Part shown: in pieces, positions 40,896 through 43,255 of the stretch | How the letters are laid out: the number at the start of each line of letters is the position of its first letter | Position numbering within the stretch: the stretch's first letter is position 1 | NCBI GenBank assembly: GCA_947624275.1 | Contig: CANQJR010000004.1 | Location: 1 to 49,803 of the forward strand | Direction: 5' to 3' | DNA from: an uncultured Bacilli bacterium | GTDB lineage: Bacteria > Bacillota_I > Bacilli_A > RF39 > UBA660 | DNA length: 49,803 nt | The notes under the pieces: generated by a model | Database searches by the model: none | What the model was told of the DNA's origin: nothing | Seen by the model: the letters and a program-made list of their open reading frames with translations, nothing else | Made by a program: the position numbers and the translations under genes

Positions 40896-40922
40896 TTATC
40901 ATATAATTAAGTGGTGAAGTAT

Positions 40923-41771
40923 ATGTTTAAAAATTTATTCCCACTTTTCTTTTTTGTCTTGTTATCTCTTTTTTCTTTTTATATAACTTCAGTCATGATT
41001 GACTCGATCAAACATTTAGATCCCATCATGCACGATATCGAAAATAATAAACTTTTATATGAAGTACCAGCAATCGATGCCAATATTGATGAAGAGAAGA
41101 TCGTTCCTGGCATCAGCGGTTTTAAAATCAACATCGATAAGAGTTATCAAATCATGAAAAAATATGGAAAGTTTGATGACAATCTCTTAGTGATTGAAGA
41201 GGTATCGCCCAATTTATCTCTAAACAATTATTATGATAAATATATTTCTTTTGGCAATTCTCGTTCTAATAATGTCAGTCTAATTTTTAAAATTGAAAAT
41301 GCCAATTACTTAGAAGAAATAGTTGAAATATTACATGAAAAGGGCGTCACTGGCACTTTTTTTGTCGATGACATCTTTCTTAAAAACAATCAAGATATGA
41401 TTAAATTATTATATTTGAATAATCAAAAAATTGAATATTTATCTCATAATTCTGAAAATTTATCTTCATCGATCAATGAGATCAATCAAGTTTTAAAGAG
41501 TTACGTCAATCAAAGCCTTTCTTATTGTTATAGTGATAATCTCAATAATGATCTTTTAAAAGCTTGTGCCAGTAAAAAATTGCACACCATCATTCCCAGT
41601 GTCAACACTGATAAATTTCCTTATTATGAATTAAAGGATAAAATTCAAAATGGTTCAATCATCAGCTTGGAAAACAATGCTCAAATCGTTGAAGAATTGA
41701 AATATATCATCAATTACATAAGACAAAACAATTATAAAATAGTCTCTTTAGAAAAATTGTTGAAAGAATAG
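40923..41771 (+). CDS. Degenerate polysaccharide deacetylase-like (NodB-fold) membrane protein
   Basis: Residues 2-22 form an N-terminal TM anchor. An extracytoplasmic linker contains IVPGISGFKINIDKSYQIMKKYG and ISFGNSRSNNVSLIF. The remainder follows a polysaccharide deacetylase order (LEEIVEILHEKGVTGTFFVDDIF, then IEYLSHNSENLSS) and ends KIVSLEKLLKE. The first catalytic Asp motif, usually TFDDG, is replaced by IFKIENA, and the HxxxH metal motif is reduced to one His, so it is probably not an active deacetylase. The ATG at 40923 (282 residues) follows GTGGTGAAG. It lies directly upstream of spoIIGA. A role in the envelope or spore is possible but not shown. Confidence 0.75.
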   Translation: MFKNLFPLFFFVLLSLFSFYITSVMIDSIKHLDPIMHDIENNKLLYEVPAIDANIDEEKIVPGISGFKINIDKSYQIMKKYGKFDDNLLVIEEVSPNLSLNNYYDKYISFGNSRSNNVSLIFKIENANYLEEIVEILHEKGVTGTFFVDDIFLKNNQDMIKLLYLNNQKIEYLSHNSENLSSSINEINQVLKSYVNQSLSYCYSDNLNNDLLKACASKKLHTIIPSVNTDKFPYYELKDKIQNGSIISLENNAQIVEELKYIINYIRQNNYKIVSLEKLLKE

Positions 41772-41787
41772 ATTTCGACAATTTTTT
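41752..41787 (+). terminator. Rho-independent terminator after the deacetylase-like gene
   Basis: AAAAATTGTTGAAA pairs with TTTCGACAATTTTT with one G-U pair and a seven-base loop, then T residues. Its right arm contains the Spo0A-box-like TTCGACA. Confidence 0.82.
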
Positions 41788-41807
41788 ATTTTGAGTAAAT
41801 ATATACT
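41774..41807 (+). promoter_or_regulatory. Candidate Spo0A-controlled spoIIGA promoter
   Basis: TTCGACA (41774-41780) is the reverse complement of the 0A box TGTCGAA; its last six bases TCGACA are one mismatch from a -35. TATACT (41802-41807) follows after 21 bases. The Bacillus spoIIG promoter also has an over-long (22-base) spacer and 0A boxes near the -35. The predicted transcription start would be very close to the ribosome site, which weakens the case. Confidence 0.5.
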
Positions 41808-41822
41808 TTAAATGGTGGTGAA

Positions 41823-42569
41823 ATGAAAGTATACATCGATTTAGTTTTTTTATTGAATGTCTATTTAGATTTTTTTATTCTTCTCACGACTTCTTTGATA
41901 TTGAAAAGAAATGTCTCATTGAAGAGAATATTTTTGGGTAGTGTAGTAGGTGGTTTGACCATCGTCTTATTATTTATAAAATTAAATGCACTACTTTTGT
42001 TCATAGGTAAATTCCTATTCAGCATTTTGATGATCTTAGTGACTTTTTCTTATCAAAATTTCAAATATTTCATCAATAATTTGGGCTATTTATATGTTAC
42101 TAGTATCATCTTAGGAGGGGGATTATACCTTTTCGATTTAGAGTTATCACTCGATAATATCATTTTTGTCTTAATCATCAGTTTGGCCATTCTATATTTT
42201 TATTTAAAAGAGATGAAGAAGATGCGAAACAACTATAATAATTATTTAAATGTTGAAATAGAATACAAGAAGAATAAATACAATTATATAGGATATGTCG
42301 ATAGTGGTAATCATCTAGTCGATCCATATCAAAAAAGGCCCATAAGTTTGATAGATATCGATGATTTTGATTATGAGTATGAGGATATTATTTTTGTTCC
42401 CTATGAGACGGCAAGTGGTGATGGACTGATGAAATGTATCAAGGTTGATAAAATGATTGTCGATGGCAAGGTCTATCGAAAAAGTCTAATCGGTTTCATG
42501 CGAGATAAGATCAAAATGGATGGTGTTGATATCATCTTGAATAATGAATATATTGGAGGGAAAGAATGA
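41823..42569 (+). CDS. spoIIGA: Sporulation sigma-E factor-processing peptidase SpoIIGA
   Basis: Membrane aspartic protease that cleaves the pro-sequence of sigma-E in the mother cell after septation. The N-terminal half has five or so hydrophobic segments (MKVYIDLVFLLNVYLDFFILL and following). The cytoplasmic protease domain has YVDSGNHLVDP (about residues 159-169), the conserved DSGN active-site motif, with VPYETASGDGLMKCIKVDKM and VDIILNN downstream. At 248 residues it is a little shorter than the Bacillus protein (309). The start follows GGTGGTGAA. It overlaps sigE by four bases (ATGA), giving the expected spoIIG gene order. Confidence 0.94.
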   Translation: MKVYIDLVFLLNVYLDFFILLTTSLILKRNVSLKRIFLGSVVGGLTIVLLFIKLNALLLFIGKFLFSILMILVTFSYQNFKYFINNLGYLYVTSIILGGGLYLFDLELSLDNIIFVLIISLAILYFYLKEMKKMRNNYNNYLNVEIEYKKNKYNYIGYVDSGNHLVDPYQKRPISLIDIDDFDYEYEDIIFVPYETASGDGLMKCIKVDKMIVDGKVYRKSLIGFMRDKIKMDGVDIILNNEYIGGKE

Positions 42570-43255
42570 TAAGTATTATTTTATTAGTTATTGAATTATT
42601 GGATAGATATAATTGTTTTTTTTATGTTGGGGCAACTGATAAATTGCCAGAACCTCTGAGCAAAGAAGCAGAGGAATTCTATTTAGTCATGGCTAGTGAT
42701 GGCGATTTGATGGCTAGAGATAAGTTGATAGAACACAATTTGCGATTAGTCGTCTTCTTGGCTAAAAAATATGAAAATACGAAAGTTGATTTAGAAGATT
42801 TGGTCAGCATTGGGACGATTGGATTGATCAAAGGCATTAAGACTTATAGTATGGATAAAAATATAAAATTGGCCACTTATGCTTCCCGCTGTATCGACAA
42901 TGAAATATTGATGTATCTTCGCAAAAACAAAAAAGTGAAGACGGAAGTCAGTTTTGAAGACTCATTGAGTTTTGATGGAGAGGGCAATGAATTACACTTA
43001 GAAGATGTTTTGGGTACCGATTCCAACATTGTGACACGACCATTAGAAGATGAGTATGAACGAAAAATTGTTTTGGACGAAATAAATAAATTGCCACCGC
43101 GTGATAAAGAAATAATGGTCTTGCGCTATGGATTGGGTGATAGAGAAGAGATGACTCAAAAAGATGTCGCTGAACTCTTGGGCATCAGTCAATCATACAT
43201 ATCGCGCATTGAGAAAAAGACGATCAAAAAATTGAAAGCTATGATGAAGAGTTGA
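42566..43255 (+). CDS. sigE: RNA polymerase sporulation sigma factor SigE precursor
   Basis: Mother-cell sigma factor. The hydrophobic amphipathic pro-sequence MISIILLVIELLDRYNCFFYVG (about residues 1-22) precedes LPEPLSKEAEEFY, where SpoIIGA would cleave. Region 2 runs from ARDKLIEHNLRLVVFLAKKYE through GTIGLIKGIKTY to YASRCIDNEILMYLRK, which matches sigma-E region 2.4 closely. Region 4 is KLPPRDKEIMVLRYGLG then KDVAELLGISQSYISRIEKKTIKKL. At 229 residues it is normal. sigG, often next in Bacillus and Clostridium, is not here; gpsA follows after a terminator. Confidence 0.96.
   Translation: MISIILLVIELLDRYNCFFYVGATDKLPEPLSKEAEEFYLVMASDGDLMARDKLIEHNLRLVVFLAKKYENTKVDLEDLVSIGTIGLIKGIKTYSMDKNIKLATYASRCIDNEILMYLRKNKKVKTEVSFEDSLSFDGEGNELHLEDVLGTDSNIVTRPLEDEYERKIVLDEINKLPPRDKEIMVLRYGLGDREEMTQKDVAELLGISQSYISRIEKKTIKKLKAMMKS

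Follow-up and report, generated by a model that had tools for sequence, protein, structure and literature searches.

A probable Spo0A-activated spoIIGA-sigE promoter in uncultured Bacilli: one 0A box and a constant 21-bp spacer, overlapped by an intrinsic terminator

The short region in front of the spoIIGA and sigE genes of this bacterium raises the question of whether a sequence resembling a 0A box is a promoter element used by Spo0A or only half of the palindrome of a terminator. In the window, that is the whole analysed stretch of 49,803 nucleotides, TTCGACA (41774..41780; reverse complement TGTCGAA) stands at the -35 position of the forward strand, which carries all the features of the window described here. 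It is followed by a spacer of 21 nucleotides (41781..41801) and by the -10 element TATACT (41802..41807), for which the family consensus is TATAAT or TATACT. The ribosome-binding site GGTGGTG is found at 41814..41820, and 15 nucleotides separate the end of TATACT from the ATG start codon of spoIIGA at 41823. Direct reading confirms the arrangement described in an earlier note, with the heptamer at the place of the -35 element and TATACT 21 nucleotides later, in front of spoIIGA-sigE. A scan of either strand shows that this is the only combination of NCGACA or TTGACA, 21 nucleotides and a strong -10 element in the window. Dinucleotide shuffling of the window's own 110 nucleotides gives GACA at this distance from a -10 element in 1.1% of the shuffles and TTCGACA in none of 5000. 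The explanation favoured here, which is considered highly probable, is a Spo0A-activated promoter of sigma-A type for spoIIGA-sigE that has one 0A box and a spacer fixed at 21 bp and that shares its bases with an intrinsic terminator.

The genes around the site are recognised from their protein matches. The gene directly downstream of the promoter, spoIIGA (41823..42569), encodes the sigma-E processing peptidase and matches TIGR02854 (E 2.5e-33, not reaching the curated cut-off). It overlaps by 4 nucleotides with sigE (42566..43255), which is matched best by NCBIfam models of SigE (E 9.7e-92 and 1.1e-86, neither reaching its cut-off). The upstream, co-directional gene (40911..41771) encodes a YlxY-like sporulation protein of the polysaccharide-deacetylase family (TIGR02873, E 2.9e-29, below the cut-off). 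A homologue of spoIIGA was found in 84 of 98 genomes in the family.

Upstream regions of spoIIGA from 83 of these 84 genomes, with seven more from a class-wide search, gave 90 loci for comparison, and nearly all of the compared genomes are uncultured assemblies. This comparison, which had been proposed as a check, shows that the core of TTCGACA and the 21-nucleotide spacing are conserved among relatives. GACA is located exactly 21 nucleotides before a -10-like hexamer in 85 of the 90 loci, as against a mean of 0.5 and a maximum of 3 in shuffled sequences. When the -10 element was picked blind to the box, GACA was found at 21 nucleotides in 70 of the 90 loci and at every other single spacing in at most five. 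The box and the spacing were also present in 72 of 79 further named MAG loci, a few of which are possibly the same records as in the first set. Nearly every genome represents a different genus, and most of the SpoIIGA proteins share 35-52% identity with that of the window, so the conservation is not explained by recent common descent. In the two relatives nearest to the window, whose SpoIIGA shows 69-70% identity, TTCGACA and the spacer length are kept and the spacer sequence has changed, as has the left hairpin arm in one of them. Throughout the family the spacer sequence is little conserved except for a T-tract.

The commonest form of the box at spoIIGA in the family is AACGACA, and the base preceding GACA varies among the 85 loci (C in 51, T in 26 and A in 8). 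Spo0A of Clostridioides difficile binds TGTCGAA, with G2, C4 and G5 as important bases (PMC3485338). Many spoIIGA boxes in the family lack the G5 contact base because of the variation before GACA. A scan of the family from -40 to +24 showed no conserved second box in tandem, whether at +/-10 or at any other position.

The distance between the -10 element and the start codon, 15 nucleotides in the window, is 15-16 nucleotides in 63 of the 85 relatives. Because this distance is conserved, the spoIIGA transcript is predicted to begin on or just before the ribosome-binding site. In the window the predicted start at approximately 41813-41816 overlaps GGTGGTG, and the caution that the start would fall nearly on the ribosome site was therefore well placed. 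The short distance implies that the transcript is probably nearly leaderless.

Other families of the class display the same or a related spacing. The 21-nucleotide spacing was found in f11 (5 of 7 loci by the stricter count and 7 of 7 by the other), f16 (5 of 6), f5 (3 of 5) and in single loci of f13 and f18, and the spacing is 20 nucleotides in f3 (2 of 2). In f8 (L101, L102, L107-L111), GACA is located 31 nucleotides from the -10 element in 6 of 8 loci and 32 in one. Since 31 equals 21 plus about one helical turn, these spacings suggest that the face of the DNA helix matters for the placement of the box. A search at the phylum level found no genome above the SpoIIGA cut-off. Inspection by eye shows a degenerate sequence resembling the box at 21 nucleotides in some f8 loci.

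The window's own genome encodes Spo0A (E 4e-42) with receiver and Spo0A_C domains. Compared with the Spo0A chain 1lq1_A, its DNA-binding domain matches with E 2.9e-46 and is identical in the stretch SRVERAIRHAIEV, and its recognition helix matches the B. subtilis sequence. Sequences like the box are also found in front of other genes. Upstream of spo0A (L001, L128-L156) a perfect TTCGACA is present in 24 of 30 family loci, with repeats of GACA or TTCGACA at 9-10, 18-20 and 30 nucleotides, and none has a perfect box in reverse orientation. Upstream of spoIIAA the opposite orientation, TGTCGAA, is found in 20 of 26 loci, compared with 0.13 in shuffles, and none of these regions, which served as a contrast set, has the box-N21 layout. 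In the spoIIAA regions (L324-L349) TTTTGTCGAA is oppositely oriented, and a conserved pattern resembling GTATAAAA...GTGCTAAAT, perhaps another type of promoter (sigma-H?), often comes after it.

CGACA-N21-TATAMT occurs at only two sites in the window's own genome, upstream of spoIIGA and of a membrane histidine kinase gene. This count is in itself no evidence, since a control with the reversed pattern also gives two. The kinase (405 amino acids, HisKA and HATPase_c domains; G000:C24:4765-5979, reverse strand, loci L278 and L294) carries the sequence TTCGACA-N21-TATAAT with box-like repeats in steps of 10 nucleotides. Among its homologues in the family, 25 of 30 have GACA at 21 nucleotides from the -10 element, mostly as TTCGACA and often with a second box 10 nucleotides downstream, and it is this recurrence that makes the kinase site count as evidence. 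The enzyme is likely to be a Spo0A-activated sporulation kinase, i.e. a case of positive feedback. The single and often imperfect box at spoIIGA would fit a late target with a high threshold, and the perfect tandem boxes of the kinase gene an early feedback target. The earlier suggestion of a conserved output site of the phosphorelay is supported, at the level of sequence, by the conservation of the box and its spacing, by the presence of Spo0A in the genome and by the boxes at other targets of Spo0A type.

Of the alternatives, the one that survives best is a sigma-A promoter, constitutive or regulated in some other way, in which GACA is part of the -35 element and the long spacer serves to keep expression weak, with no part for Spo0A. 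Several family members with TTTGACA or ATTGACA come close to the sigma-A -35 consensus. However, AACGACA, the form found most often, is poorer as a -35 element and better as a 0A box, and the constant spacer of 21 nucleotides is far from 17. Furthermore, the TTCGACA-N21 module is found again at the kinase gene and perfect boxes again at spo0A and spoIIAA, which makes a promoter independent of Spo0A unlikely. The conservation of GACA could be due in part to sigma recognition, as GACA also ends the sigma-A -35 element TTGACA, and the sequence separates the two demands incompletely.

The earlier note had cautioned that the match to the box could come from a palindrome half, and in the window TTCGACA is indeed located inside the right arm of a hairpin with a stem of 15 bp. 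The left arm (41751..41765) is at the end of the upstream coding sequence, the loop (41766-41772) contains the stop codon of that gene, and the right arm (41773..41787) is followed by a T-rich tail to approximately 41792. The end of the stem and the T-tract are thereby carried by the promoter spacer, and a T-tract is also found in the spacer of the family. The folding energy is -13.8 kcal/mol (z = -3.9). A fold of locus L184 that lacked the left arm was left out of account. As in intrinsic (Rho-independent) terminators, the stem-loop and T-tract come just after a co-directional gene. The hairpin differs from these in that its stem is mostly A-T with few G-C pairs (a G-C-rich stem is typical but not essential in A/T-rich genomes) and in that its bases are shared with a promoter. 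A simple terminator scan requiring at least three G-C pairs did not list it. The gene upstream of spoIIGA is co-directional in nearly all family loci and its identity, as read from the sequence, varies among the genomes (FtsZ-like tails, YlxY-like and others), consistent with a hairpin that acts as a terminator.

These features and the co-directional genes would also fit a heptamer that is nothing other than a terminator arm with an accidental likeness to a 0A box. The relatives make this very improbable. An automatic classification places the box in the left arm of the hairpin in 57 loci and in the loop in 7, the hairpin wholly upstream of the box in 17, often with a T-tract extending into the box, and the box in the right arm in 2, one of which is the window (L010, classed as a loop, is a left arm by eye). 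The box remains fixed at 21 nucleotides whichever of these positions the hairpin takes. This is the opposite of a box that drifts while the pairing of the stem is kept, the outcome named beforehand as speaking against a Spo0A site. Together with the conservation in 85 of 90 loci, the shifting hairpin refutes a terminator origin as the sole explanation of the box. The proposal that the box doubles as the right arm of the terminator is correct for the window and does not hold as a general layout, since most relatives use the box as the left arm.

Where the box forms the left arm, changes in the base before GACA are matched in its pairing partner (C-G in 27, A-T in 8 and T-A in 7). The stem is thus able to change, but GACA is constant. 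In 10 left-arm loci the C before GACA is retained opposite an unpaired T. When left and right halves were exchanged between genomes, a hairpin score of at least 18 was obtained in 0.27 of the recombined sequences, compared with 0.53 of the real ones. With GACA fixed, the base before it co-varying with its partner and the recombined halves scoring lower, selection appears to act in the same bases on the DNA box as well as on the RNA hairpin. An inverted pair of 0A boxes (ACGACA...TGTCGT) binding a Spo0A dimer, with the hairpin as a DNA operator and no RNA terminator, would account for the right arm TGTCG of many relatives, which is a second box in reverse, but is rejected as most unlikely because pairing persists with right arms that are not box-like (e.g. 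CATTTCT and TCACTTCT, which pair equally well), a T-tract follows the stem, the hairpin is upstream of and unrelated to the box in 17 loci, and the window's own left arm has TTGTTGAAA and no perfect box.

The Spo0A-activated promoter favoured here has a close counterpart in B. subtilis, where the spoIIG promoter also stands before spoIIGA-sigE with a 0A box at the -35 position, a sigma-A-type -10 element and an over-long spacer. The B. subtilis spacer is 22 bp, several 0A boxes are present, and the activation of spoIIG is described by a model of polymerase repositioning. The features of this type of promoter are found here: a 0A box over the -35 position, a sigma-A-like -10 element with a spacer several bp longer than 17, the spoIIGA-sigE genes directly downstream and, in the genome, a Spo0A with a conserved DNA-binding domain. 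A set of several boxes is absent, and such a set is not regarded as essential to the type. In contrast to B. subtilis spoIIG, the spacer is 21 bp, there is one conserved box, the promoter is overlapped by the intrinsic terminator of the gene before it and the predicted leader is very short. The spoIIE promoter of B. subtilis is similar in being a Spo0A-controlled sigma-A promoter with a long spacer but belongs to another gene. PMC12090719 cites Spo0A control for both sigma-A promoters of B. subtilis, spoIIG and spoIIE, the latter from York 1992. The region upstream of spoIIGA in C. difficile is likewise a target of Spo0A but differs in having no perfect box, and the Spo0A DNA-binding domain gives only a low-affinity shift there (PMC3485338). 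Literature searches found no paper with the words for the long spacer, and none combining Spo0A, the 0A box and an intrinsic terminator.

Sporulation genes differ between members of the family. No genome reaches the cut-off in a search of the family for SpoIIE (TIGR02865), and no full SpoIIE was recognised (loci L114-L127); the weak matches are mostly open frames of about 250 amino acids covering only the phosphatase region. The family may have lost SpoIIE or may have a very diverged form of it. One genome of the same genus as that of the window (G057, 97% complete) has no match to spoIIGA or to the kinase, and its weaker Spo0A_C match lies in a frame of 157 amino acids. The Spo0A match is weak, short or absent in most family genomes without spoIIGA, and sporulation may have been lost several times.

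According to the favoured reading, the single 0A box lies over the -35 position and 21 bp separate it from the -10 element, a distance that would be about 4 bp too long for polymerase alone. The promoter would be nearly silent during growth, i.e. without Spo0A~P, because polymerase could not use both elements well over this distance. When sporulation begins, phosphorylated Spo0A would bind the box and allow polymerase to engage the -10 element productively, as in the model for spoIIG of B. subtilis, and the transcript would start at the ribosome-binding site or a few bases before it. Transcription from upstream would be halted inside the promoter, with no early leak of sigma-E, because the terminator of the preceding gene is packed into the same bases. 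More tentatively, and with less than even confidence, this may be a rigid single-box module found throughout the phylum, with GACA exactly 21 bp or one helical turn more (31 bp) from the -10 element, merged with the terminator of the preceding gene into a block to read-through and a developmental switch, and giving a nearly leaderless transcript of the sigE operon.

The region is thus a likely output site of Spo0A with an oddly long spacer, fixed to the base pair across a family of uncultured bacteria with small genomes and varying by one turn in a related family. Well over a hundred natural variants are available with which to test the way an over-long promoter is made to work by Spo0A. The promoter and an intrinsic terminator seem to evolve in the same bases, with neither losing its signature, and functional control of sporulation in these gut bacteria is supported.
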